Source: Mesodorylaimus sp. YZB2_4 (lineage: Eukaryota > Nematoda > Enoplea > Dorylaimida > Dorylaimidae). From it: DNA of 64,000 bases. Positions 25,052-44,862 of the stretch are shown here, piece after piece; the first letter of the stretch is position 1; each line of letters opens with the position of its first letter. The stretch is taken from NCBI GenBank assembly GCA_030248295.1, contig JASANH010000812.1, positions 248,001-312,000 of the forward strand, in the 5' to 3' direction. A model generated the notes under the pieces. It was not told the origin of the DNA. It saw only the letters and a list, made by a program, of their open reading frames with translations, and searched no databases. The translations under genes and the position numbers were made by a program.

Positions 25052-27101
25052 CCCGGGATTTTACCAGGGAGAAACAAATGTAGTGCAGCAACTGTTTCAC
25101 AGGACGGGACAGGGTTTAATTTGTTGTTGACTCGGTGGGGTCTAGGCTCTGGCGCTTAGCGTGGGCGAGAGGAAAGGTGTGCTAGAACAACAGGAAGTGC
25201 ATACCTAGCCGAGGCCAATGACGCAATATGAAATGAGGGCTGTTAGACCATAGCCCTGGTGCAATCGCAAACTTTGAAATCCGAAATTCGGAACTCGTCT
25301 ACTGAACTGAAACATATAGTAAAGATTCGATAACGAAGTACTGGCATAGAGGGGAAAAGGAAGCAAATATTTGGTTAATTCCTGGCACTGCAATCGAGCA
25401 AGAAGATAATTCTACGTAAATAAAAACATATTCTTTGACGGAACTCTCACGCCAAAATGGGTTGCAAATTTTTAAAGGTTTGGTCTTTGGTTTTCCCTGC
25501 TCTGTCCCCTGGATCAGGAAAATTAAAGAACCGACTTACAGTATTTGGCAACTCGAACTTCTAAACTTTCCGTCATATTTATAACAAGTCAAGCCTTCTC
25601 ATTGTCTTGTGCCAGAATGAAAATGATTGCTGCGAGCACAGGACAATAAGGGCATATAGTATTCGTGTGGTACTCTGGCGTACCTTTCCAAATTTTTAAG
25701 AAACATAATAATCTATTGAAAAAGGCACAAATAACATCCACCAGAAATTCACTCTGAAAAAGCATTGTTCCAAGCATCAACCATTCCGCAGATCAGTTGA
25801 ATCCGATCCGACTGCTGCATTAGCCGAACTGAAAATAACGTGTGGCATACGTATTGCACAGTTATAATTGGTATAGTTATGAGAAAAACCAACACACAAT
25901 CTGACATCTAGCACAGAAGACATCACAGGCTGGCAGTAAAATCTACGTGGTCACATAAGGGGATGGATGGATGGATGTCCACTTGCCCTACGATAACCTT
26001 AGACTGACGAGCATGATCCCCGGTGCCCTCAGTAACTGACTGTGAGCACATCATGTCGACTTCTTTGTCATTCGCTGACATATCTTTAAGAAAATACATA
26101 GCATAAGGAAATGAAATGATTTTTCAATGGGATGTGCATAAAGCAAGTGTTCCACACTAAAAAAGTGCGAGGGCGTGCAGTGCTTGTTTGCATGAAGACC
26201 AACGTCATAGGAAGTCGGTGTCCAGTTCAGGATGCCCTCGCGTGGAGGTGCTCCCAACGGTACTGTACTGGAGACGCACAGAGGAACGCTGCTGTGTCCG
26301 CTAGTTCTCGCACAGCCTTGCTAAGAACGAAGGGTAAAGACAAAACTGGTACGAGCCCCAAAAATCTGAAAAATACATCTTTAAAATGAGAAACAAATCT
26401 TGGCATTCGTCGTATTCCAGCTTCGATATATTCTCATGTGTGAACGGCATGCTTTGATGACCATACCGAATGCTTGCTGCATTTCACAGCATTTACAAAA
26501 AACCCAATCATAAACCCAAACCCAATCTTTAAATTTCATCATTTACAAAAACTATGTACAACTTATAAACTGCCTCAAAAAAGATAGTCAATAAAGTATA
26601 AGTGCAAATTATTTGCAATAAAAAGAATCCAATGAACTTAATTTGCAAATATTGCCGAAAAATGGATCAAGTGACTAAAAATTGACAACTTGCTCATCCA
26701 CCCCTTCCTATTATGCGACTACAATTCAAGCCGTTTCTAATTGCATAGAAAACCAAACCACATCGAATTCGGATACAATATTATGAATGGACATATCTAT
26801 ATTGCTGCAGCCACTGTAAAAGACTGATCCAAGCACCTCGGCAATTAGGTATATCAACTTCGCAAAAAGCAAAAAATGTCAAAATGTTATCAGTCCCGTT
26901 TTCTGTGTGGTCAGAGCGAAATGGCCGATTATTTCCTGCGCACACCGGTTGGATTGTTCAACCAAGGATAGGCCGCTGGGCAGGTAAAACACGTTTTGAA
27001 CCAACGTTCGCCGAATGGTAGTTGTGTTTGGTAGGAACATCTTTGAGGGGTCTAAAATGTCAAATGCATTTTTAGCTCAATTTATCTTCCGTCCAGCAAG
27101 T
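25052..27101. other. Spacer, no supported gene
   Basis: About 2 kb between the Cys-rich gene and the end of the deacetylase gene. Only short unsupported frames are seen. A small GGATGGATGGATG run lies near 25963. Nothing else stands out. Confidence 0.4.
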
Positions 27102-30100
27102 TTAGGCCATGAAGATCGTTGGAAGAGTGAATGTGAAACTGCATCTTACACGACAGGGTGCTGCACTTTCGGGTTTTCTTTCATTTGGATTGCATTGCCA
27201 GGGTGCAAATGAGGACAACTGATTGTTGGTGGTTGGTCGACGCATCCACTCCAACACTTGTTTTTCGGTTACAATCCATACGTCCGGGGTGCGTAGAGTC
27301 TGTAAGACAAAGGAAGAAAAACAAGTGCTGACATCAACTCCAGCTGACATGATCGACCGAATCTTGCACACACAGTTGCTCATGGAGAATCACGCTCTGC
27401 TGCCATGTCTTGGCCTGCGTGCAACTTTACACTCTCCGTGCTGTTACTAAAACGGACCCCACTGTACACCGTTGAAAAGGGGGGTGCTCGCCACAGAAAC
27501 ACTAGAAGATCCGCGCGGACCGCGCGGCTCGACAGCGACTGATCATGATCGAGTAGACTCAGGAATCGAGTAGACTCAGGAATCTATTCGATAACGCAGC
27601 ATGCAAGTGATAATTTTTTATGCGGCCGATTGATCAGTTATAGATCAGTCATGATTCATGATCGAGCACCAACACCCCCCAGGTCGCTCTATCGATTAGC
27701 CACGCATATTATTATGATCAAGCAATCGATCAGGATCCCATTTCGATGATGCATCAGGGTACATATTACATCATCGTTATATCACCGATTACAGCTGATC
27801 AGTCGATAATGCATTAAATCCAAATCGATCAATCGATAATGCAATTATAATGCATAATCGATTGGTCGGCTGCTATCGATTATATATAGGTCCATCGGCC
27901 CTGTGGTCATTATTCATCTGCCCTGACCACACTGATTGCACTATCGATTACCCGTCCGTCCATTCTAATCAATAAGAGGGATAACTAGTCGTTAGTGTGA
28001 TCGCCATGATTAGGACAGACGGACGGGTAATCGACAGTGCGATCACTGTGGTCAGGGCAGATGAATGATGACCACAGGGCTGATGGGCCTACATATCACC
28101 AATGGCAGCCATCAATCGATTATGCATTATAATTGCATTATTGATGGATCACTGTGATTAAGGCAGAGGAGCAATCGGCGGTGTGATCAGTGTGAGCAGA
28201 CCAGACGACTCTCGATACTAAGATTACTGCATTCAGAGGGATAACTAATCGTTACTGTGATCGCTATGCAGTGATCATAGGATCGATAGCAATCTGGTCT
28301 GTTCACACTGATCACACCACCGATTACTCCTCTGCCATGATCACAGTGATCACACTATCGACAACGATTAGTTATCTCCGATCACAATGATCGCTGCATC
28401 GATTAGTTGTCTGGCCTGTTCACAGCGATTACACTACCGGTTAATCGTCTGTCCAAATCACAGCGATCACATTATCGATACCGATTAGTCATGAATCTGA
28501 TCTGAGCGATCACACGATCAAAGTCACTCATGCTGATAACAGAGTACAAAGCCTAATCAACTAACCAATTACGACCCAACACAACATCGCCTCCTACCTG
28601 TGTCAAGAAGCGGTCCAACGCTTCCATCGATCCATTATTGGGCAAAGTTTGAAAGAATGCGGCATCCAAAGTGATCACGTAGGGGGCACGATTCGTGCGA
28701 TAAACGCGATTGAAATTGTCCAACAGCATGTTGAATAAGGTTTCCACAGTCTCCTCAGGGGCATCGGCCATAGCAGCTCTGACCATGGCGCCTCGCTTAT
28801 GCTCTTGTATTTCAGGCAAGTAATATCCGAAGAATTGATTGATTGGTATGACCCACAATCCAGGGAACGATCGATCAGGGCACGGCTCCACTTCGCAACG
28901 CCAAGGAATTTGGAAGTCGAGCGTCTGCGGCCAAAAAGCGGGTCCATCTTTGCCAGGATTTGCTGACATGCTATTGTCGTATTGGAATCCATCTTGGCGC
29001 ATCATTTCGAATTGACTATTTCCACCTGGCGCTAATTGAGGAGCACGCACGCCCTTTATCGAATCGACAGGAATACCACTGAGTTGTTGGAGAATAGTAC
29101 GCATTCCATTCATTTCTGAACTCCAACGCTCAACTGGCTCGTGGGACAGGGTTTGGTGGCTGGAAAAGTGTCATAGGTCACTTGTGCTGAACCTATAGAG
29201 ATCATGACGACACACTTGCGGCAGTGCAAAGTGCAAGTGATTTTACACTGGTCGTTGCTGCAGTGGTGTTGACACAATGCACTACTTCAGCACTTGGGTG
29301 CTGGAACAGACAGCATTGTAAAGTGACAGTTCACTGTAGCCCCTGGGTTCACTAGGTTACTGTATGTTACGGTGCTCATTGAGTGTATAACCAAGCCTGG
29401 CAGGCGCAGGGGAGACTGTGGGACAGGAGTGGAGCAAGACAAGTCTTGCGACTACCTGAAACGTCAACCTGAGGGGTTGAAGTTTCCACGCCAGGGATGT
29501 CGATTACTGTCTCCTACTCGCTATGTCCCACCAGCACGAGGGTTACACGTGCCGCCAAAAAGTGTACTATTCTGGATTCTTCCTACTTCTACTGTATGTC
29601 GCCTTTCCCACATACCTGATAGAATTGACAGCAATTTCATGTCCATTAAAGTACAACCACTGGACCTCGTCGTAGTTGTTCCATTCATGAGACACGAAAA
29701 ATGTAGCTTTTACTTCGCATCCATTTGGGTTTTTGAAACGGCCATCAAAAAGGCGTCTCAAATAATTCATGGTTCGCCCATTCAGAGCGTCATCGATACT
29801 CAAAACCACCATCTGTGGCACTTCTGCGCTATTGTAGTTGCCAGGAATCTGTGTTCCATTTCGACTGCAATAACAGTCAGGTAATTGGCAAGCGACTGGG
29901 TTTTCTGGCAGTGGACACGATTGAGTGCGAGAACTCATGAAAACGTCTAAAACGAATTTTTGAATTGATTTGTACAAGTTCGATCCCATGACAGTCCAAT
30001 ACTTTTTTAAAATCTACACTTATTTTTTGCACAAAAACTTACTTTTGCAACTTTTTCCAGATTGCGTTGTTCCAGCTGGACATGTGCATTTGCCTTGTGC

Positions 30101-33100
30101 ACAAACGGATCCTCCACCACACACTTCGCCATTCAAACAACTCGAACCTGGGGTCACTAAAATGCAGATAATCTTGTTTTATGCCTGGCCACATCCACAT
30201 GGGTATCTTTTTGTTTTATTGCTGTTGATAATTCATGTCTTTGTGATATTTCCTTGCAGAACAATCGTGAGAAATACCTATTGGAGCTTCAGCGCATTGC
30301 AAGTTGACGATGAGTTGCCCGAAGGGGCAAGTGCACACATTGTTATAACAATACGAACCACCATTGCAGACAACCGCACCGCCGCACCAAGAACCTGGTG
30401 GTGCTGCGAGAAGATTCGAAAAGAACATACTTCATCCACAAGAAAAATCGATCGATAACCAGCAACCCGATAAAAGCAAGCCGCGCCGCGAAAAACACAA
30501 GGTCGGCCAACAAGAATAAAAATTTTACTTACCTTTCCCGAAGTGAATCCTGCTGTAAGCACTTTTAAGTAAAAAGGAATGTCAAGTTAAGTGGACCCCA
30601 GATACTCAAAGGCAGGTCCAAACTTCCATGCATGCCAGGACCCCGGAACCCCAAGGGCACCAACCTGCAAGCGTAATGACGACCTTGAAAAGCTCACATG
30701 CAAAGCACACGCGCCCAAATTTGTGAAAATCAATTACCAGACTTTTCAATCAGATCTCGTAATTTTCGAGGAATAGAGGAATCGTAAGTCACACACTGGC
30801 CATTTTGGATAGTGTGGCCCGGAGGGCATGTGCACAGGCCATTGAAACAATAGGCGCCACCCCCGCAAGCTCGATTTTCAGCACAGGGCGAAGCTGGTGG
30901 GACTAAAAAAGGACTTAAAACTGGTTGATGGGAGGAAAAATCAGACTTACCAGTTTTCCATTTAGGGATGCATCGATCGCCATAGGGCTCTTGATCGTTC
31001 TGGCATGTGCAGACACCACCTTGACAAGTCGATCCTCCAATGCAGTTGGTATTTTCTGATGGTAAGCACGGGTTTCCAGGCAGAACTGTAATATGAACAC
31101 TGCACTGGTATCTAGCCGAGTATGCTCATCTTACCTCCCCCATTCTCTCCCACGCACATCATATTCGACGCAACCGTTCCACCAGGACAAGTGCACAAGT
31201 CACCAATGCACAGTGCACCACCTGAGCAGACAGTGTGCGCGGCGGATGCCCCGGATGGACATGGCGCCCCTGGTGGAACACTGGAGGGGCCGCGGGCTGC
31301 GCTCACGTGGGGACCACCAATATTCTCCCGACTGTGGGCTGGGACCCGAGTGCAGAAACCATCCACGATCACATCACTTTCAGCACATGTGCACAGGCCA
31401 TTGATACACGTCGAATTCCCACCGCATGCCGTCGTACCAATGACACAGGGGGCCCCGGGTGGAGCTAAAATGGCACAGAGAATACAGTAGCTTACACCTC
31501 TTTGAGCCCCTCCTCACATAACGCTGACCAATGCACCCAGATGTCGGTAGACTTGAAAGACCCCTTGGGAAGCCCACTGATCTATAGCAAGGCTAGAATC
31601 TCTACAATAGGCAGGAGAGTTTCCCAAGGGAGCTTGAAGGAGGCCTAACATATCAAATCGACCTTCCTAGGAATGCTTGCCACATCGCCCCACCAGTGAA
31701 GTAGTTGTAAAGTACAAGCAGTACCCAAGTAGTAAAGTACAAGCGAGCTCACCAAAGTTTCCAGACGTTCCCATCGGAACACACCGTCCGCCCATGGCCT
31801 TCAGCCCGACAGGACAAGAGCACACTCCGGGTGGTGCGCACGTTGATCCAAATCCACAAACTGATGGTCCATGCAGATGGCTCGTCATACTCGTATTGCC
31901 AATAGTGCATGGGGAGCCGGGTGGAAGGAATCCAGATCCACCACCAATAAATTCAGAGGTCATGCCAGTCGTGGTTGAAATGCAGTGTCCATTTTGATTC
32001 AAGGTATTTTCAGGGCATACGCAGAAGTTGCTTCGACATACACTACCACCTGAGCATAGAGTTTGGCCAGGGGTGCACGGAGCGCCCAGCTCCACTGCAA
32101 CAAGAGTAGTATAAGAAGTGAGAAAGTGATGATCAAATCAAGCCTACCTCCACTCGTACTACCAGGTGCACTGATCGGCGGTGCTCCGAAGCTGGGCACG
32201 CATTGCATAGCACTATTGGCCACTGCGCCTTCAGGACACGTGCATATTCCATTCTTACATATCGAGCCCCCGGTGCACGGGGCAGACGGGTCGCACTGGG
32301 AGCCGGGGACGCCTTGGATGAGCAAATTGGGGAGAGTTGTGAGCATATTCATGCCAGCTACGCATTGGCCATTGAGGACGGTGTGGCCTGGCAAGCAAAC
32401 GCACGAGCCAAGGATGCACGTGGAGCCGCCACCGCAGACCAGTCGACAAGAGGGGCAGATATTGGAGGCTTCGCACGACGAGCCTGGGGGAACTAAAAAG
32501 CCAGGGTAGTAACCGGTTTAGATTGATTACAAACAATCACGACTGATAAGGAGTTGGTATGAGTGAGCTGCTTTGATTATATAAGTGATCACCTGCAGAA
32601 TTTTGTAAAGAGCTATAATAAGTGCATAGCATTTACTGGCGTCTCGCAACCATGCACCCAATTACAATGATAAGGTGCTGGACTGCAGGGCGATCGATGA
32701 CTGATAAGCTCATCCTGCTATCCTAAAGCCTTACTTGTCAGAGGGCTCATTGAGCAAAATCCGTTCACCACAATTTGACCTTGTGCACAAACGCACTTTC
32801 CATTGACACAGCTGCTGCCACCAATGCACCCAGTTCCGTCAGCCAGACAGTCGGCGCCAGGTGGGACTAAACATGCCACATTAGTTCACCTTCAATCGCA
32901 GATTACAGTACCTACTACCTTCTCGTCCAGGAATCGGGGCCCTAATTTCGGTACTATTTTCACCAATTTCATCACCAGGATTTTTTGGGTCTCTAATTTT
33001 CCTTGCATTTACGCTCGTACATTGTTCATTGACAATAATTTGGCCAGTTGCGCACGTGCAACGATCACCAATACAGAAACTGCCGCCGATGCACATAGTG

Positions 33101-36100
33101 ACGCCAGGAGTGCAAGGGTAGCCTGGTGGAACTGTAAGATCACGAAAAAGGAATGTTGCCTTGGTTTTTTTGTTAGCCGTGCAATATCATTCGGGTTTTT
33201 ATCGAAATTAAATCACTATCAGCTGTTTAAATTCACAGCTCAGTATTGTCTATGTGATTTTTAAAGTAGAATGCCTCAAAGCACGGAAAAAGGGCATGTG
33301 AAATGCACGGCTAACAGGAGAACACATACAAGCAGCAGAGTCCGCGTGTCTTACCAGCATTTTGCCGCATTATGCATTGACCATTTTCTGCCATTTGACC
33401 TGGCGGACAGTGGCATACCTCAATGAACAAAGAACGAGTACCACACCCGTCAAAGAAGGTACTGTGTATGCTTACCCCGTTCACGCAACTCGAATCACCC
33501 AGGCAGATGCTATTCGCATCGCAAGCTAGGCCAGGTAGCACTGAAAGCAAACTTGCAAAAGGCGGGTGCAGCATATCATGAGGCGGGAACTGTACCTGCA
33601 GATTGCTTAGGAACACATTCATTGTGCGCGATAACCTGATTTGGCGGACATGTGCAGATGCCACCAATACAACTCGAGCCACCGATGCAAGGCATGGACG
33701 GGAGACACGGCTGGCCAGGAAAAGCTGCAATAAAGAGATGCTACGCGAGACTGGGTGTACGTAAAAATGACATACCCCAGTTCCCAGGCTGCCGATTACA
33801 CTGCCCATCTTGAGCGTATGTGCCAGTCGGGCATGTGCACACCCCATTGTTACAGTATGATCCACCGGTGCACAGTGCAGTCGTTGAGGCGCAGTCCCCG
33901 CCAGGAGGCACTGAAACACAGAATTAATGTCCAGCTGAGTGGCGAAGAATGGAATGCTGAGGCCCGCAAATTTCTTACCCTCCCCTATTCCAGATGATAG
34001 AACACAAACTTCGTTTTGAACAGTGTGGCCAGCAGGGCAGATGCAAATGTTGTTGGTGCAGGACGAACCGCCACTGCATCGAGTTGTCTCATTGCACCAG
34101 CTTCCAGGTGGAGCTGAAATAACTACTGCTAAAAGGGCAAGAGGCATAGTCCACAGGTAGCATACCAAAATTTGATGACCAGGATGGAGTGCACCTTTGG
34201 TTCTGTACAATTTGCCCCATGGGACACGAGCAAATGTTGTTCACGCACACTGAGCCACCACCGCATGTTGTCACACCCAGAACACACGGGCCGCCTGGAA
34301 TAACGGCTAGAATGGAAAAAACAGCTTTGAATGAGCAGCGAGCATGGAATGATGACTTTGTCACCTGCAGCTCCAGTGCTCTGACAAACCCCATTGATGA
34401 TCATTTGTCCTGGGCGGCACATGCATTGGTTATTCTGACACATTGACCCGCCCAAACAATTTGTGGCAAAGTCGCATGGCTGACCGGGTAATGCTGAAAA
34501 TAAATAAATTTTATAATCGTATTGGGGCTTACAGAGCTGCATACCTGTGCTCTGGCCACCAGGTCCAGTGCATAAGCCATTCGAGACCGTCTGACCTTGG
34601 GGACATGTGCACAGATTGTTGATGCAGAATGATCCTCCTCCGCATGCCGTCTGGGCTGGAATGCATGGGCTGCCTGGTGGAACTGTAAAACACCGAATCA
34701 GAAAAAGCAAGAGAGGTGAAAGCGGCTACTTACCTCCACCAGTTCCAAAGACGCACATCTGATTCTCGACCACTTGGCCAGCTTGGCACACGCATACACC
34801 ATTGGAGCAGAAGGAGCCACCAGTGCAAGTGGTGATACCCAAGGTGCAGAAACCGCCAGGTGGAGCTGAAACACGTAACTGGTGGCAAAAGAAGAGCAAA
34901 GAAGATGAGCTCAGCATACCGAACTGGCCACTGCTCCCATCAAGACCAACGCACATTTGGTTTTGCACAGTTTGACCTGGTAGACAAGCGCAAAATCCTC
35001 GCTGACACACAGATCCTCCGGTACAAATGGTGCCGAAATCGCATTGCTGACTCGGATAAGCTGCAAGTCAAGTCGAGCGGTCATAAAAGCAGTGGTCAGT
35101 CGTTGGCGCCACGGCTCACCAGTGTTCGTAGATCCTGGGGATATGCACACTTGATTTTGTACAACCAGGCCTGGCCCGCATGAGCATTGCCTATCCATAC
35201 AATGCGAGCCCCCACCGCACGCTGTTTGGCCCATATCACAAGTTGCGCCTGGAGGAACTGCAAAAAGGTTCTATGAACGTACCCGTATAATCCGACTCAG
35301 AAAAATAGAGCCTACCTGACATACCCAGAGGCCCGATGCACATGTTAAATTGAGCAGTTTGACCTGTCGGGCAGGCGCATATGTTATTTTGACACCACGA
35401 ACCGCCAGTGCATATGGTCCCGAAGTCACAAGGCTGGCCTGGGTTAGCTGAAAGAAAACAGACACTCAGCATAACGGGGTGCGAAGGGACTACTTAACCT
35501 TTTCGACGATTACAGTGATCATGGAAACCCATTACAGTAATCAGCCTAGGGAGCAGGTCTAGGAAATTTGTCTGAGAGAAAGTTCAGCAATCACTCCGAA
35601 AGGGGAAATAATCATTCTAAACAACGGTCAATGCAATCACTGAGGTAATGTACTCGCTGTAGAGAGCCCGATGTGTCTGGTCTGGTGTGGCTCAACAGGT
35701 ACAGTATTTACATACCTTGGTTAATCATGACAGCAGGCTGGCACTGAACTAGATCATCAGTGATAACCATTCCAGCTGGACAGGCGCAAACTACAAATAA
35801 AAGGCCGTTGAAGGTCATAAAAGCAGTGCTTAAACGATGCTTACCTCCATTAATACATCGCGATCCGCCGCAGCATCGTTCAGCATTTGCGCACGAGAAT
35901 CCAGGTCCAACTAAAAAAAAGTAAGTTCAGAACCAGCTGATTTTTCACCCAGGGTATCTTACCGACGAGTGTGACACAGGTGAAGCCTTGTACCCCACGA
36001 CCAGGAGGGCACATGCAAAGGCCACCTTGGCAATACGATCCACCAGTGCACACGTCCATTAAGTTGCACGGTTCGCCTGGGTTGGCCATACGACCAGCTG

Positions 36101-39100
36101 AGAGGGAGGTTGGGTCAGAGGATTCACAGGCTTCAACGCCCGTAGCCACCAAAACCGACCACAACTGATAAACTGATAAGCCATCACAATAAACACCATA
36201 AAACAAAATCATGCTGAAACTGAATAATAATCCAGGACATGCAAAAACGAGCTCCATAAGAAATCCCATCCACCTACCTGCATTACAACCATGACCAAAA
36301 ACCCATCACCTGCCCCGCGCCAAAATCAAATATCTCGCGCCACCTACCTTGCATAGCCACGCATCGTTCACTGACTAAGCTAGTGCCATTCGGGCACTTG
36401 CACTGGCCATCCACACAAATCGCGCGTCCCAAGCACTTTTCAGTCAGAGAGCAAGAATGGCCGGGCTTTGGTAGTGGTTCCGACCATTCAATCACACTGC
36501 GCTTGCCACGAACAGGCGAAGAGGGACGGCGACGATACGCGTATCGATCATAGGATACTTGTGGGAGAGAAAAAGAAGGTGCTCATCGTCAGCTCAGACT
36601 GCTTGGCTCACTTTTATGCAGTGTAAAGTGGTAAGTAATGCCTGAGCATCTTTCTGGGCTACAGTATGACCATATGACCTTACCGACTGGTGGTTCCTGA
36701 CAACGCTGGTTAATGACCACTTGATCAGCAGGGCATGTGCACACATCACGAACGCATGAAGACCCGCCGCCGCAACGTTCGCCATTGGCACACGATGCAG
36801 TGGGTGGCACTAAACAGAGGCAGTTCACGTGAGAAAAGATGGCACTGTTCCACGGGGCCACTGACCTGTGGCTGTCGGCCGGCATGCACCACTAATCACA
36901 GTGTAGGTCGGTGGGCAGACACAAATGCTATTGATGCAAACTGAACCACCGCCGCACGTTTCACCAGCGCTGCACGCTGAACCTGGGGGCACTGCAATGC
37001 GAATGAGTGATTTTAGACCCTGATATCAAGACTGGTGATGAGCCACAGTCCGAGTTATACCCAAGGATGATAAGAGTTGATAGGACTGATAAAACAAATA
37101 AAATAGGACATTAACTTGTGAGCACCTGACAAACTGATAAGAATACCCTTAGAGTACCTGGCGCAAACGCCTTCAGGCATCGATTAGCAACTGTGATACT
37201 GCCACTTGGACATAAGCAAAGCCCATTCTCGCAGATTGAACCACCAACGCAAGATTGACCATTTCCACAAAAAGCACCAATTAAAGCATTAGCTGAAAGT
37301 AAGCTAACAAAAATTGAACAAAGCAGAAGAGAAAATGCATAAAATGGCTAACTTCGCGATTTCGGAGGTATGGTCGGCCAGGACGGAATTGGAGCATATG
37401 GAATCGATGATGGTGGAGTGGGATAGAGATTATAGACGATGGGTGTTTGACATATGCCATCCACTAGCAGAGTGGAGTTGGGGCATATGCACACACCACC
37501 AAGACACGAAGCACCACCAACGCATTCGCCGTCATTCACGCATAAGAAATTATAAGGAACTAAAAACGAGTTTTGAAAAAATTAAACAAAATAGCAAGCG
37601 AAAATTATAAATGCGAAGGAGAAAATTTCTGAGTATTTTGAAAGACCAAGGCTTACCCATGGGCGGCAATGTACAAAATTGATCGCGAATGACTTGGCCA
37701 GGTGGACATTCACATTTGCCCATTCTACACGTCGAGCCACCAGTGCATACTTCGGTGCCTATCGGGCATGGGTTGCCAGGTGACACTGAAAGTAGTAGTT
37801 TTTTTGATCGAATGGAGCAAGAAATCGAAGAAAAGCGTGCCTCTAAGTGGATTTCCACATTCTTGATTTCTTATCACCATATCAGCTGGACATTTACAAA
37901 CTCCATTTTGACACGTTGCTCCACCAGTGCACAGTTCGCCATTGGCGCATGACGATAGGGGTGGTACTGAAATTATTCACATCACAATTGTAAGAAAAGA
38001 TAAGGCATTTTGCGAAGCAGAAGCAGATGGAAAAAGGAATCACCTCTCCTCTGATTAACGCACTCTTCCCTCAGGGCAACACTGCCTCGGGGGCATGTGC
38101 ACGTGCCATTGATACAGGTCGAACCACCTGTGCATTGTTGATCGATGGCGGACAGCAGACATAATGAGCCAGGCGACAGGACTAAGCAGAAAGAACAAAT
38201 AATGGAAAACTTGGGAAAAGACATTCTTCTGGCATAGAAGAAGCTGAAAGCCAGACGCCCAGCACACACCTCGAATTTGTACGCATTCATTTCGGCGTAC
38301 CACTTGGCCTTGTTGGCACGAGCATCTTCCATTGATGCACCTGGAGCGATCAGTACACAAGGCCGAGGCGTGACAGTAGGAGCCAGGAGGAACTGAAATA
38401 CCAATACCCATAGCTGCATCAATAGAGATGAAGGAGCAGGTGAGCAGAAATAAGGAACCAAGTAAGAAGGATCAAAAAACAAAATGACAGGTTCAATGAA
38501 TAAAAGAATGCAAAATAACATTTTATGAAAGCACATACCAGAATTTGCAGCCACGCACATTCCGTTTGCCCACATTTGATTACGACGACACGTGCAGACA
38601 TTAGCAACGCATGTGGCGCCGCCGGTGCACTGCTCGTTGGTCAGACACGGAGCACCAGCGCCAGCTGAAGGAAAGTGCGGTCAGGAAGCTTTTGTAACCG
38701 CGCAAGAATTCAATAAAAAATCATACCAGATGAGTATTGACAAACTTGATTGAAAGCTGCTTGGCCAGCAGGACAACGACAAATGCCATCTTGACATTGC
38801 GACCCGCCGATACAAATCTCTCCATTAGCACAGGAGAAATTAGGAGGAACTAAATTGCAATCAAACTATTGCTTCACAAACACACAACACATGCAAAGCT
38901 GGTACCTGAAGCCATGAACTGGCATTGCAGATTAATAATCTTGGTCCCGGGTGGGCACATGCAAACATTGCCAACACATTCCGACCCACCCCCGCATCGC
39001 TCTTGATTAGCGCACGAAGAACCAGGTGACACTAAACTGACAGCATTAGTGACTGAAGAAGGTCCAATGTCGACCGAGATACCTAAGCCAGGGGTCCTGC

Positions 39101-42100
39101 ACATGGCTCCTTGAGGAACCATGCCATGAGGGCACGAGCAAATGTTATTGACACAAAATGACAAGCCAGTGCACAGTTCTGTCCCAGTACGACAAGCTGC
39201 GCCAGGCGGCACTGCAATGAAAAGTCATTAGTACCACAGAGGGAATACGCTTTGTGATAAGCACAAGCAACAATGCACCTTGCATTGGCACTAAGCAGCG
39301 ATTTTCGCTGAGCAAAGTTCCAGTGGGACATTGGCATATGCCATTTTGGCAAATCGACCCGAGCGTACAGCGATCCGAAAGTGAGCATGGGTAGCCAGGG
39401 GGCACTGCAAAAGTTAGCTGTAAGCTATATTAATTGCTCATAAGTTAATTAGGCACTACCGGAAGGCGGGATAGCGCAGAAGCCGTTAATCGATATTTGA
39501 CCTTCGGGGCACACGCACGCGCCATTTATGCAAACGCTATTTCCACTGCACTGGGCCGTTGGTCCGCAAGGTGAGTTAGGAGGCACTAGACAAAACAAGG
39601 CGAGGAAGCCATGTTAGAAGCGGTTAAGCGGGTAGTTGGGTGCTAACTTACCATTGGCTGGTGTGACGCACTGTTGACTCGATTTGACTGTGCCAATCGG
39701 ACACGAGCAAAAACCATTTTCGCAGTATGATCCACCAACACAGTATTCACCATCGCGACAAGATCCTCCCGGTGGAGACGAGGCTGAAGAGGTGTGTAAA
39801 GTGACCCAAAGCCTGCGAACTGTGTTTTCAGGGTGCAGGGAACATTGCGCTCATGCGTTTCCAGACAAATGCAGCAGGAAATTCTTTGGGACTGCAAAGT
39901 AATCAGCAAGCTTACCTCTGGTACATGTGCCATGCATGCTCTGAGTTCCTTGAGGACACATGCAAACGCGATTAGTGCAAGTTGAGCCACCTTGGCATTG
40001 ATTACTGACAACGCATGGCTGGCCAGGAGTGACCAAGTCTAAGCAATCTCCTTCGTACTCAAGTTGGGTACTTCGGCAAACTGCGAAGTAAAATCAAGAT
40101 TTTTATAAGACACTGAGCTCTAAGTGGAAGCTTACCTGGGCGACACATTCCTGACTTTGGGTTCATCATATACCCTGTTGGGCAGCTGCTGCTGCAAGCT
40201 GAAATACAGGAGAATATAGATGGACTCGCACTTGCACTGCCTCGCACTAAAACGCACTTTGCACACATGCTAAGCACAATCTTAAGTAAGCAGCGAAAAA
40301 GGAACTTTTGCGCCATAAGTGCACATTCTTCAAATAAAAGAATCCCCACCACCACTTACCAGAACCAGTCCACATTTGGTTGTTTGGACAACGGCAAATG
40401 CCTTTATCACAAATCATTCCAGGATAGATGGCGTGGCACTGACTCGAGTACTGACATCGATCGCCAGGTTGCACAGCTGAAAAAGGTTTGGTTTACTGCA
40501 GATTTTGGAACCGCAAAGAAATCGATAAGTCATACTCGGCACGCATTTGCCCAAGACTCCGGAATATGTTTGTCCAGAGGAGCATGAAGTGCCTGAAGTG
40601 GAAATGTTACTAATAAGGTCAAATAAGCAGACCAAGACTTTTCGATTGCAAAATACCCGCGCTCTCAAGCAAAGCCACTCTACCCTGGCTCGCCCTTCCC
40701 ACCCTAAGTCTCGAGTAAGGAGTCATGGATTATTGACCGAGTAAGAGATCGCATAAACAAAATACCTGAATTCGCTTACAAACAATTCACAGGATACAAG
40801 CCGCCTTGTGCTTGAAGCCCGCGCGCAACCTCTGCAAAGTGCGGTCAACAAGGTTTGTTGACCCAGGGGCTCGAATTACCACCACAACACTCGGGAGGGG
40901 GGGGGGGGGACGGGGGGAGGGGTGCATCTGCGTAGGAATGTGTCCCTTATTTGGGTATGGCCTGCATCCAGGTCTTAAAAATACTGGATAGGAAAAGTGC
41001 TTACCACACGTTCCATCCACAGCCACAGGCATAGCCTCAGGACATGTGCATTGGGTGAGGAAACACAAGGACTCCTGGTACGATGCGATACATTGCTGTC
41101 GATGGGTGCAAGTGCGAGCACCAGGGGCGATCACTGGCTTGCACTCGCCTAATTCGGATATCCATACTGTGCCACGTGTTGTGCAATTACTGTTGACAAA
41201 AGCTGAAAATCTAGGACTGAGATTTATTGCTAGAAATGGAAATAATTGTGACTCACTGCAGCGTCCGTCCCCCGTCACCACCATGCCATATACACAGCGA
41301 CAACGTAAATTGACGCAGAATGCACCAACTTCAGTACCACTGCATTGCTGAGAGTATTGACACGGCTCGCCTGGTCTTGCGACTGCAAAGAAAGCGGTAG
41401 AAGATCACGATGAATTACAAGGCTACACTACTTACTGTTCATGCATGCTCCAGCCTCTGATACGTAAACCTGGCCAGTACCGCAGTTTCCTCTTGAAGTC
41501 GACCCTGAAGTGGAAAAGTTGTACACCTTGCGTCAATGTTTTTCTGTTAGCCGTGCGTTCAATCTGGCTAGCCTGCGCTGCTAGATAGCACCCTACTGCT
41601 GCAAAGTTTAATTATGACCATTTGGCCATGCTAAAATCATAATAACGTTATCGTTTCTATCTGCTGGCCATTGTCAATCTTCCTACATAACACTGCACGG
41701 CTAACAGAAAAATACATGCTAGGTAACCTAAAATTTATCCCACACCTCGCCACTACCTGGTTCTAAACACGTCGATCCGGCATTTATGGCTCCATCTCTG
41801 CACATGCATGTCCCCATGCAATAAGCGAATGGATTTCCAGCACATTCTTGATCTTGCGAGCACACACCACCAGGTGGCACTGTTCCAAATCCTACTGCTG
41901 ATCCGAACGATGCAGGCGGCACCTGGGCTGGTTGTATTGCTTGGAAATTGATTACTCCACGCGTTCCGTACGATTTGGCAGCGGGTACTGCTCTTCTAGA
42001 CGCCACCTCCACTTCGTAGTGGAACACTGGCGACTGGGTCGTGCTAGTGGCCACTGTGCCTATGGCCAGACTTGCACCTACGAGCAACCACAGGTTGGAT

Positions 42101-42108
42101 AGAGCCAT
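27102..42108 (-). CDS. Giant EB-module protein with C-terminal chitin deacetylase-like (CE4) domain
   Basis: Secreted matrix protein predicted to bind and deacetylate chitin-like polymers. ATG at 42108 opens a signal peptide ([15 protein letters not shown]). About 48 exons follow, nearly all phase 1, each mostly one EB module: VPPGxxC, CxGGSxC, NxICxCPxG, NxxC. I count about 45 modules; exons near 32493, 32094 and 31467 hold two each, while modules near 35911/35790 and 33541/33420 are split. The last three exons (29946-29616, 29159-28598, 27299-27102) encode the CE4 domain: [30 protein letters not shown] across an intron, [24 protein letters not shown], and the end [13 protein letters not shown]. 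Total is about 2,700 residues. C. elegans LGX-1 and F48E3.8 have a similar EB-plus-deacetylase plan. Exact exon ends were not all fixed. Confidence 0.85.
27834..28145. repeat. Large foldback with 120-base arms
   Basis: Left arm about 27841-27963 (includes TGCATAATCGATT, CATCGGCCCTGTGGTCAT, GATTACCCGTCCGTCC) pairs with right arm about 28014-28136 (GGACGGGTAATCGA, ATGACCACAGGGCTGATG, AATCGATTATGCA). The loop is about 50 bases. It lies in the last intron of the deacetylase gene. Probably a foldback element; no coding capacity. Confidence 0.75.
28147..28352. repeat. Second foldback, adjacent
   Basis: Left arm 28147-28206 (GATCACTGTGATTAAGGCAG, GGTGTGATCAGTGTGA) pairs with right arm 28292-28352 (TCACACTGATCACACCACCG, CTCCTCTGCCATGATCACAG). 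The loop repeats AGAGGGATAACTA found in the loop of the first foldback, so the two are related. Confidence 0.7.
29425..29570 (-). repeat. Dispersed repeat family B, copy 2
   Basis: On the minus strand: TAACCCTCGTGCTGG, GCGAGTAGGAGACAGTAATC, GACGTTTCAGG, GTCGCAAGACTTG. It resembles 61496-61645 over its whole length and 5905-6030 partly. It is inside a deacetylase intron, between the two halves of the H-x3-H motif. Confidence 0.55.
33165..33321. mobile_element. MITE with GTTAGCCGTGCA ends, copy 2
   Basis: TTTTGTTAGCCGTGCA at the left and TGCACGGCTAACAGGAG at the right, 157 bases in all, no coding capacity. It lies in an intron of the EB-deacetylase gene. Confidence 0.75.
37160..37920 (-). other. 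EB exons with non-canonical donor
   Basis: The exon from about 37968 to 37841 has no usable GT after its last cysteine codon. Ending it at 37841 with a GC donor (GAG|GCACGC) joins in phase to the next exon (GTG TCA CCT GGC), rebuilding the usual VSPG module start and keeping the sixth cysteine. The only GT (GTGGAA) would cut off that cysteine. This exon set is part of the giant gene. Confidence 0.45.
41541..41710. mobile_element. MITE with GTTAGCCGTGCA ends, copy 3
   Basis: TTTCTGTTAGCCGTGCG and CTGCACGGCTAACAGAAA form nearly perfect terminal inverted repeats around 170 bases. It sits in the first intron of the EB-deacetylase gene. This is the cleanest copy for defining the family. Confidence 0.8.
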
Positions 42109-42179: not shown

Positions 42180-42405
42180 CGCAGTAACATCTGGCCAAGT
42201 TTTAGCAAATTGAGTGCATTGTGGGTGGACCAGCAGGGTTGTGAAATATTGCTTAGCCGGAGGGTATAAAGAAAGTTTATACAAAGCCTCAGCACTCAGC
42301 TGGAAGTCATTATTTTAGAAATCAGAGTGGGTTGAATATGTTGAAAATACGGTTGAATCATCGACTTTAGAAAATCTGCTGCAAAAAGCAGAGATAAATA
42401 GATGG

Positions 42406-44862
42406 CTAATTGTTATGACACGTGGCTATTTCCGGCTGGTTGTGCTCTCCTTGGCAACACACAACCTGCCTTATGGACTTACTAGTAGGGACACACGTCT
42501 GACCACTGGCCACAGATCCACCAGGACACTCGCAATATCGATTTCGACAAGCAGATCCAGGAAAAGCTGCTGAACATTGGCGACTGTCATCACATCCCAG
42601 TTGCCCAGGGTAAATTACTGAAATTACAGTAAGGGTCATTTTCTGCACGACCTACTGTGAGTCTAGAAACTAAAGAAAATGGTTACCAGGTAAGCAGTGT
42701 TTATCAATTTCCACGTGCGTTCTCAAGCATCGGCAATATCCGTAACTGCAGAATTCCCCTTGCCCGTAGCAGTCGACGTTACTGGCGCAGGGATTATTTA
42801 CAGTAGCTTCGCCTGCAAGATCGACTAATTTTATTTTCTCTGCAATAAAATTGTAATAACCGCTATAATTATAAAAAAATTTCATATCTTATTTCTGACG
42901 CATTGATTTCTGGTCACTCGCTGATCACCAGTCTCTAACCCAAATAGCTAACCACTAATCCCAAATCCCAATCATAATTCTTGTGATTAGTCAGGCCATG
43001 ACGTAGGTAAACAGGGGACCACACTGCAATGATCAATTTTGATGCGGACTGAATTATAATCATAATCGATAATCGAATTCTGGTGATAAGTAATCAGAGA
43101 TTGTGAGCCTGGTCATTATCAGCGATCACTGATAGATCACCATAGCCTGCATCAGCTGTCAGTGATCAGTTATTTGGGGCCATGGCAAATACGAGCAACA
43201 AGGTAAAAAAAGTTTTATCATTTCGATAATCATGATGATAAATGTCGTATGATCAAAATGCCGGATCTGATAACCAGCGTCAGAAGCTGACATTGTGACG
43301 ATCACATACCCTCATTGGGTCAACAGACTCATAATTATCGTTTATCATCGATTATTGCCGATTATTCAAGAACTGAATTTCGGTTATCGATAATCGATAA
43401 TTTATCATCGATCGCCAGTCATCATCATCGATTATCGATTATTATCGCAGCTTAGTCAGCATAAAAATTAATTATCACGGGGTGGTCACATACATCATGA
43501 CCTGAATGGCACTAGGATGATGAGGCAATTATCTATAAAAAAACTATAATCTACAATACCGCACAGGCCACGACACAATCATTGTTAAAAGTCACGAATC
43601 ACAGGGCTCAAAATTTTTGCTAGACTTAGGACCAAATGATGGTTACAGCTCCATCATTTTGACAATCCATTATTCTAAACCTGGTTTGAATGTGTTTTAT
43701 GCGGAGAAGCCAGAGTGCATAAAAAGCACGGCTAACAGAAATACTGTACTGATAATGATAAGATCGCAATCGCAGGAACACGATAAATTCTGATGATCGC
43801 GCCATCAGTAGGAAGATTACACGGGCATGATCAGTATATCCTGATCAATAATTACCGCGATTTCATAGTGATCTGCAACGTAATAGTTTAAAATCCTCAC
43901 TCGGAAAAGTCCCGCCAGGAAAAGAAAGAAACTTGCCCCTGGGGTCTTATAATTGATAAACCGAGTTTTCAACTCCTAGTGGCAGGGTTTCTGAATGATA
44001 AAAAGATTTACCAGGTGCAAAGTAGCAGTGTCCGTTTCGAGGTGAATATGGAGATGCGCATTGGCAGGTGTTATTGATGCAGATGCTGTGCAATGTTTGA
44101 CACGGGGCCGATGTTAGTGACTCGCTGCACGGTCCGTGAAGTGTGCCCATTGCATTGGCTGAAATTGAGACGCAGTGGAAAAGAACTCTTTCGGGCTTAC
44201 TTGACTCATTGTGTGAGAGTGCGCTTTTTCTGTTAGCCGTAAAATTTTATATATTGTACTGTACTAGCTTGACTTCCCTGGGAGACAGTCATGCAGACAC
44301 AAATACTGTAGAGCAGCAAACACTCGTCTGGCTGACCGTGACATACGCTGTGTATTTCACTTGCTGCAGCAACGAATTGCATCTAAAGCACGGCCAACAG
44401 AAAAACCTCCGAGCCACATGGACTAGTTTACAATTTATACTCCCTCCCAATTGTATGGTGTCTTTCACCACCCCCTAAAGTCCTTCCTCATTGTGTCTGA
44501 ATGACCAAGTGTTCTCCACAATCTTGGCGCCTGAATCAACGAAACGATCTGCCTCCAGTGTATGCTTAGGGGACAGCTGACACAAGTCACGACAGGACGA
44601 TCTCACGTCGTGGCACAATCTGTGTAAACACACGAAGACGCTGTTGAAACGCGAGCCCCGTCTAAGACCAGAAATGGACATGGGGCAAGCACCTATCACG
44701 TAACACGTGTCGTAATCAACAGCCTAGCTACTGTATGTGAAACCCGGGACGAGGCACGAAAACAAAATCAAGGCACCACTTACCTGCCCCCATCGATATT
44801 ATCGTTGATAAAAAAATGAGTATCCAAATATCAACTTTCAGGTATCTCTTCGTTGTGGCCAT
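42406..44862 (-). CDS. Small EB-module protein
   Basis: Exons: 44862-44784, 44158-44012, 42812-42687, 42617-42406; every junction is phase 1, 187 residues. The first exon gives a signal peptide or anchor (VDIWILIFLSTIISMGAG). Three EB-like modules follow, one per exon: PCQTLHSICINNTCQC; PCASNVDCYGQGEFCSYGYC; and CRNRYCECPGGSVASGQTC. It lies immediately upstream of the giant EB gene on the same strand, with the same phase-1 one-module-per-exon design, so the two share ancestry. It ends with its own stop about 300 bases before the ATG of the giant gene, which has its own TATA box. No enzyme domain; role unknown, probably extracellular. Confidence 0.75.
42890..43780. repeat. GATAAT/ATCGAT-rich intron tract
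   Basis: The intron between the second and third exons of the small EB gene is dense in CGATAATCGATAAT, TCATCGATTA and CAGTGATCA words with local palindromes, like the last deacetylase intron. A solitary MITE end (GCACGGCTAACAGAAA) lies near 43727. No coding exon is seen. Confidence 0.5.
44225..44404. mobile_element. MITE with GTTAGCCGTGCA ends, copy 4
   Basis: TTTTTCTGTTAGCCGT on the left and GCACGGCCAACAGAAAAA on the right, about 180 bases. It is in the first intron of the small EB gene. Confidence 0.7.

Follow-up and report, generated by a model that had tools for sequence, protein, structure and literature searches.

The gene described here lies in a window of 64,000 nucleotides, positions 248,001 to 312,000 of contig JASANH010000812.1 of the nematode Mesodorylaimus sp. 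YZB2_4. It is predicted on the minus strand from an ATG at 42108 to a TAA at 26929, and its 51 exons join into a single open frame of 2723 aa (Table 1). The product is a long roundworm protein, probably secreted, in which about 46 small cysteine-rich modules appear to be followed by a chitin-deacetylase-like domain. The initial annotation had described a deacetylase carrying about 45 EB modules in about 51 exons; that observation is real and is confirmed here with corrections. The number of exons agrees with our curated model. The 3' limit of 27102 was too short because the open frame that had been followed runs past a splice donor; the gene ends at 26929, and exon 51 (27051-26929) had been missed.

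The 51-exon model was obtained by manual curation after an automatic pass, with a preference for exons that keep the six cysteines of a module, and the regularity of the modules was therefore partly used at doubtful splice sites. The first automatic model (49327-26301, 78 exons) was rejected; it merged upstream EB exons, cut the CE4 exons and overran the stop. The start, the exon use and the EB/CE4 fusion are predictions from the genomic sequence. The donors are 49 GT and one GC (exon 17, uncertain), and AG is the acceptor throughout. Introns have a median length of 66 bases; of the 50, 46 are in phase 1, three in phase 0 and one in phase 2. Besides the GC donor, the model is weakest at the acceptors CAAG of exon 23 and TGAG of exon 38 and at two in-frame introns of 54 and 57 bases, each splitting one module (exons 25/26 and 37/38). 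These two introns can be read through in frame and could be retained, so that the exon number is 49-51. The intron between exons 49 and 50 (27300-28597, 1298 bases) is dense with inverted repeats, among them one of 104 bases (87%) and one of 86 bases (86%), and with short direct repeats in which ATCGAT/GATCA is frequent; these are perhaps the remnant of a mobile element.

Table 1. Positions of the predicted gene, its exons and its features in the window, and of the second gene of the same plan on contig C237.
Feature	Position	Strand	Remark
Whole gene	26929..42108	-	One open frame, 51 exons; splice sites canonical except one GC donor
Putative TATA-like ggatatataa	42171..42180	-	About 65-70 bases 5' of the ATG; read directly
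Exons 1-7	42108-41757, 41504-41436, 41382-41257, 41202-41005, 40592-40536, 40476-40360, 40198-40136	-	
Exons 8-14	40080-39916, 39783-39652, 39585-39460, 39404-39279, 39211-38906, 38849-38727, 38664-38539	-	
Exons 15-21	38392-38270, 38181-38044, 37966-37841, 37785-37657, 37559-37353, 37292-37158, 36991-36866	-	
Exons 22-28	36809-36684, 36557-36348, 36097-35963, 35910-35845, 35790-35716, 35447-35316, 35257-35120	-	
Exons 29-35	35060-34920, 34865-34734, 34682-34545, 34493-34365, 34306-34166, 34113-33979, 33910-33776	-	
Exons 36-42	33724-33596, 33540-33476, 33418-33355, 33131-32976, 32866-32735, 32492-32148, 32094-31753	-	
Exons 43-49	31464-31135, 31085-30951, 30902-30738, 30403-30278, 30156-30043, 29946-29616, 29159-28598	-	
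Exons 50-51	27299-27150, 27051-26929	-	
Exon 1: signal-peptide-like start, linker, first EB module	41757..42108	-	Start judged by eye
Exons 2-8: EB modules 2-5	39916..41504	-	Exons 2, 5 and 7 hold a short Cys-containing half-module only
Exons 9-47: core array, modules 6-46	30043..39783	-	One-module exons mostly 41-47 aa
Exon 12	38906..39211	-	Two modules
Exon 23: Arg-rich linker with RGKR (residue 1082)	36348..36557	-	Before module 21; weak acceptor CAAG
Exons 25/26	35716..35910	-	Single module, split by the 54-base in-frame intron
Exons 37/38	33355..33540	-	Single module, split by the 57-base in-frame intron; acceptor TGAG
Exons 41-43	31135..32492 (32492-32148, 32094-31753, 31464-31135)	-	Two modules each
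Exon 48: CE4 start	29616..29946	-	Motif 1 SIDD (Asp pair kept), first part of motif 2
Asn in exon 48	29626-29624	-	Zinc-binding His in insect CDA1; alignment
Exon 49: CE4, continued	28598..29159	-	Rest of motif 2 (His kept), motif 3 RAPQL, FQYDN, motif 5 TLD
Motif-5 Asp in exon 49	28666-28664	-	His in both insect CDAs; alignment
Exon 50: C-terminal part of CE4 region	27150..27299	-	
Exon 51: last exon and stop codon	26929..27051	-	Silkworm CDA1 aligns through exon 51
Second EB-array and CE4 gene	C237:71111-82068		About 20 modules found; Gln-rich stretch inside the array

With the C-x-C core as anchor, 46 EB modules were counted in exons 1-47, and 42 stretches pass the Pfam EB profile (PF01683) alone when the protein is taken in four pieces (7+13+13+9). 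The whole pieces score 198.1-305.9 bits against a cut-off of 24.3. The core module has six cysteines, with the spacing 6-6-5-2-11 in 24 of the 46 modules and 7-6-5-2-11 in 11 more. Searched on both strands, a Cys-spacing pattern was found 38 times in the gene span and 2 times in the other 48.8 kb of the window, while 50 shuffles of the gene span gave a mean of 0.06 and a maximum of 1. The modules share the cysteine pattern and the profile matches with the EB module proteins of nematodes in Pfam; they differ in that the repeats are mostly six-Cys, and in an exon-by-exon search many of them match PF01683 only from about position 10-17 to position 52 of 52. The initial annotation proposed one phase-1 exon per module, which holds as a rule and is broken by half-module exons as well as by the two-module exons (12, 41, 42 and 43) and split modules that it had correctly seen side by side. 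The gene holds 29 of at least 148 EB matches in its own genome, where 150 of 317 candidates were scored. Among solved structures no convincing relative of the modules was found; there was one match, to reelin, at E 0.036. An AlphaFold model of one two-module exon (4 sequences) was weak, with a mean pLDDT of 66, and placed two units of short strand pairs on either side of a low-confidence stretch.

Among exons 2-47, 44 of the 46 are symmetric (phase 1-1) and could be skipped in frame. It is conceivable that these exons form a cassette library from which splicing gives many isoforms of different length. Three predicted transcripts were reported for the C. elegans relative F48E3.8, and the deacetylase activity of whole-worm soluble extracts was found in bands of 104-178 kDa, smaller than a full-length product would give (PMC3396651). 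However, such bands could come from proteolysis or from other proteins, and RGKR in exon 23, a possible proprotein cleavage site that could split the protein, could also yield shorter forms. We regard the cassette library as unlikely.

A profile built from the gene's own modules found three further modules in the 64-kb window, all on the minus strand at 42493-44138. They belong to what is apparently a separate small EB-module gene directly upstream (42296-44158, minus strand), which has three or more EB exons. Inclusion of these upstream exons (44158-42483) in the present gene was rejected; they were set apart because they can be read into a last exon of their own, whose stop near 42296 precedes the ATG at 42108 by about 190 bases. 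Two modules of this upstream gene resemble, by eye, an adjacent pair in the array of the second EB-CE4 gene of this genome, on contig C237.

The existence of an EB exon run lacking CE4, assigned to a separate gene directly upstream, raises the question of whether an EB-only gene and a CE4 gene were also merged in our model, which was built from genomic DNA. The join between exons 47 and 48 argues against it. The intron there is of 96 bases, with good splice sites and phase 1 on both sides, and AATAAA is absent. Exon 48, where the CE4 part begins, has by eye no secretion-type start of its own, and the C237 gene has the same order of EB modules and then CE4. The two parts look like one gene, as the initial annotation had it in stating that the modules feed into a complete CE4 domain, and we consider a merger of two genes very improbable.

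Exons 48-51 encode the CE4 region of 388 residues. It scores 33.0 bits with Pfam Polysacc_deac_1 (PF01522) against a cut-off of 23.1, and the two profiles proposed as a check on the gene, EB and Polysacc_deac_1, thereby both pass their curated cut-offs. Insect CDA structures match the region at 3.4e-79 and 5.4e-49, and the nearest solved chain is silkworm CDA1 (5zns; 3.4e-79, 269.9 bits), over residues 17-384 of 388. With silkworm CDA1 (PDB 5zns/5znt) and CDA8 (5z34), the alignment covers the whole CE4 region and the C-terminal part, whereas the solved CDA1 and CDA8 chains (385 and 369 residues) consist of little besides CE4 and have no EB modules. No chitin-binding domain was found in the protein with Pfam at E up to 0.001. 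In silkworm CDA1, zinc is bound by Asp206, His261 and His265, the catalytic base is Asp205, motif 3 is RAPYL with Arg306, motif 4 is AMVDS and motif 5 is YFH (PMC6463723). Motifs 1, 2, 3 and 5 of the present gene are SIDD, NSISH, RAPQL and TLD, so that Asn and Asp stand where insect CDA1 has two active-site histidines. In a four-way alignment, the triad of both this gene and its C237 paralogue reads Asp, Asn and His and their motif 5 reads TLD; neither carries the Asp-His-His zinc triad with the motif-5 His of CE4 (PF01522). Motif 4 of CDA1 aligns ambiguously with AMVRA of this gene and AMIRA of the paralogue and was left unscored. The description of the CE4 domain as complete is borne out by its length but not by its active site, and since two residues are replaced there, an active enzyme cannot be assumed.

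It is quite possible, though we lean against it, that this CE4 domain has little or no catalytic activity and is a pseudo-deacetylase, whose part would be to bind chitin at the end of a structural EB cable. Both replacements occur in both EB-CE4 genes; moreover, the reported activity was that of whole-worm soluble extracts rather than of a purified product of the gene, and a chemical assay detected no chitosan in whole worms (PMC3396651). On the other hand, both genes keep the Asp pair of motif 1, one of the zinc-binding His and the Arg of motif 3, and Asp might in principle stand in for His. In the published alignment the nematode sequences share the Asn; its authors argue that activity is retained, and they observed Eosin Y staining of the pharynx in addition to the activity bands (PMC3396651). 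The domain is also well conserved, with 49% identity between the paralogues, which indicates that it is under constraint. The Asn in place of one zinc-ligand His has already been described for nematodes; the unusual point is the motif-5 Asp together with this Asn in both CE4 copies. The enzyme encoded by our gene may thus have little activity or none, and the role of the protein may be mainly structural.

The EB-CE4 plan is no one-off, as the C237 gene is a second one of the same plan in this genome. Its last EB module runs to 79857 and its CE4 frame starts at 80280, with about 420 bases between them, and its CE4 region (C237:80280-82068) has the motifs TFDD, NSITH, RSPQL and TLD, with FLYDN. 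The genome search with PF01522 missed both EB-CE4 genes, so other CE4 genes may exist; it did find a gene on contig C153 (C153:97307-97672, frame of 300 aa). This is a single-exon, microbe-like CE4 gene with, by eye, a signal-peptide-like start and intact canonical motifs (TFDD, HTFSH, RPPYG, LQHD). Its closest solved chain is ArCE4A, and its best plasmid match is 38%. The GC content of 43% and a serine-protease-like frame nearby, by eye, suggest that C153 is a nematode contig, and the gene may have come from lateral transfer or contamination. As for the genome itself, matches to the cuticle-collagen N-terminal domain were found in 133 of 137 candidates, and it is these collagens that mark it as a nematode genome; the canonical SL1 22-mer gave 0 matches, and Rfam SL1 gave no match among the 50 of 31302 candidates scored, nor did the controls. 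A bolder proposal, which we hold to be rather doubtful, is that both long EB-CE4 proteins are pseudo-deacetylases, that is, EB cables of about 20 and about 46 modules with an inactive CE4 head that grips chitin, and that the C153 gene is the sole CE4 gene met here with intact canonical motifs. If this were true, the 'deacetylases' of nematode chitin linings would be mainly structural.

The initial annotation also saw in the array exon shuffling and duplication in progress. In favour of current expansion by exon duplication, the reading frame would survive the gain or loss of any of the symmetric exons, exons with one module, two modules and split modules stand side by side, and the block of modules 24-36 is more alike than the rest. 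The comparison of the modules with each other did not uphold it. Among 46 modules (1035 pairs, with module 37 cut from its second Cys), the mean amino acid identity is 0.42 and the maximum 0.69; no pair reaches 70%, and 10 pairs reach 0.60 or more. Codon-aligned DNA identity has a mean of 0.48 and is at most 0.65; a raw nucleotide identity of 0.865 for modules 33 and 35 was discarded as a gap artefact. Neighbouring modules are no closer than modules 2-8 places away (0.445 at lag 1 against 0.43-0.45 at lags 2-8, modules 5-46), and a comparison of the 50 introns with each other gave no more than three matches (14, 16 and 19 bases; same strand, E up to 0.01). Modules 24-36 are closer to each other, with a mean of 0.492 (78 pairs) against 0.428 for the other pairs among modules 5-46 (783), and because of this mutual identity the block has probably expanded later than the rest, yet long ago. 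The best match of a module within the gene has a mean identity of 0.559, against 0.509 for the best match to the 19 modules of the C237 paralogue, which nevertheless wins for 10 of the 46 modules; by eye, no collinearity of best matches between the two arrays was evident. Because of the low module identity, the neighbours that are no closer and the few shared intron bases, we take the array as a whole to be an old, inherited feature of the gene. A burst of duplication under way at present has hardly any probability left.

The nematode relatives that have been tabulated include F48E3.8 of C. elegans (2444 aa, domain 2124-2277), a protein of C. brenneri (2693 aa, domain 2373-2526), C. elegans C54G7.3 (1876 aa, domain 1500-1650), B. 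malayi (1802 aa, domain 1469-1624) and T. spiralis (1524 aa, domain 1190-1343) (PMC3396651, Table 1). As motif 1 lies at about residue 2384 of 2723 in our protein, the stretch before the domain is normal for the family, and the predicted length is not unusual when compared with these relatives. The consensus published for the nematode family is NSI(T/S)X for motif 2, R(S/A)PX for motif 3 and FXXDN for motif 4; the Asn of motif 2 is the nematode pattern, the Caenorhabditis motif 2 is NSISH, and motif 5 is variable, with Trp instead of His at position 7 (PMC3396651). The present gene agrees with this family in its nematode origin, in the C-terminal CE4 of a very long protein and in NSISH, RAPQ and FQYDN. 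It departs from motif 1 (T/S)FDD with SIDD and has no Trp in ITLDAAFF, which was taken as motif 5; the C237 paralogue has the fitting TFDD, but also TLD and no Trp.

Orthology within the family appears mixed. In F48E3.8, apparently the CHTS-1 of PMC9629831, and in its Caenorhabditis orthologues (four species, 2444-2693 aa) more than 2100 residues likewise precede a CE4 domain close to the C terminus. They share NSISH with our gene, which differs in motif 1, with SIDD instead of (T/S)FDD, and has TLD at motif 5. C54G7.3 (lgx-1) shares with it a large CE4 protein and the Ser of motif 1, but is shorter before the domain. The length thus fits F48E3.8, while the Ser of motif 1 belongs to the C54G7.3 group according to PMC3396651. 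The C237 gene may be closer in size to C54G7.3, despite its TFDD. The main text of the paper on F48E3.8 and C54G7.3 does not use the term 'EB module' and mentions a chitin-binding domain as weak-scoring only (PMC3396651). In the open-licence literature surveyed, we found no description of EB modules together with a deacetylase. F48E3.8 is annotated with EB in databases, and from this and its length we infer that its long part is an EB array. The architecture of the present gene is ordinary for the family, and what is notable is the module array and the active site that is off-canonical in two places.

Taken together, the explanation that we prefer, and consider probable as a whole, is that this is one gene and a member of the known nematode polysaccharide-deacetylase family typified by F48E3.8 and C54G7.3, encoding a secreted EB stalk with a chitin-docking CE4 domain, and that its array is old. 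Both relatives show pharyngeal expression in C. elegans; double knock-down of F48E3.8 and C54G7.3 delays development, as does knock-down of C54G7.3 alone in a sensitised strain, while F48E3.8 knock-down alone had no consistent effect (PMC3396651). EB-module transcripts were also upregulated in the Anisakis tissue 'PX', which we read as pharynx (PMC5763927). After secretion the protein would reside in the pharyngeal lining, which contains chitin, and its cysteine-rich and presumably disulphide-bonded modules would make up a long, flexible stalk by which partners in the matrix are bound or held apart. The CE4 domain would dock on chitin and, if still active, deacetylate it locally. The proposal that the EB array serves as a long extracellular tether or scaffold is plausible.

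With mostly one module per exon, the gene is a clean case for the study of how repeats are kept. The chitin deacetylases of nematodes have been discussed as targets for intervention and nematicides (PMC3396651; PMC10853968). Should their active site prove degenerate and most of the protein be an EB cable, the rationale for such targets would change, and the pharyngeal lining would gain a giant structural protein.
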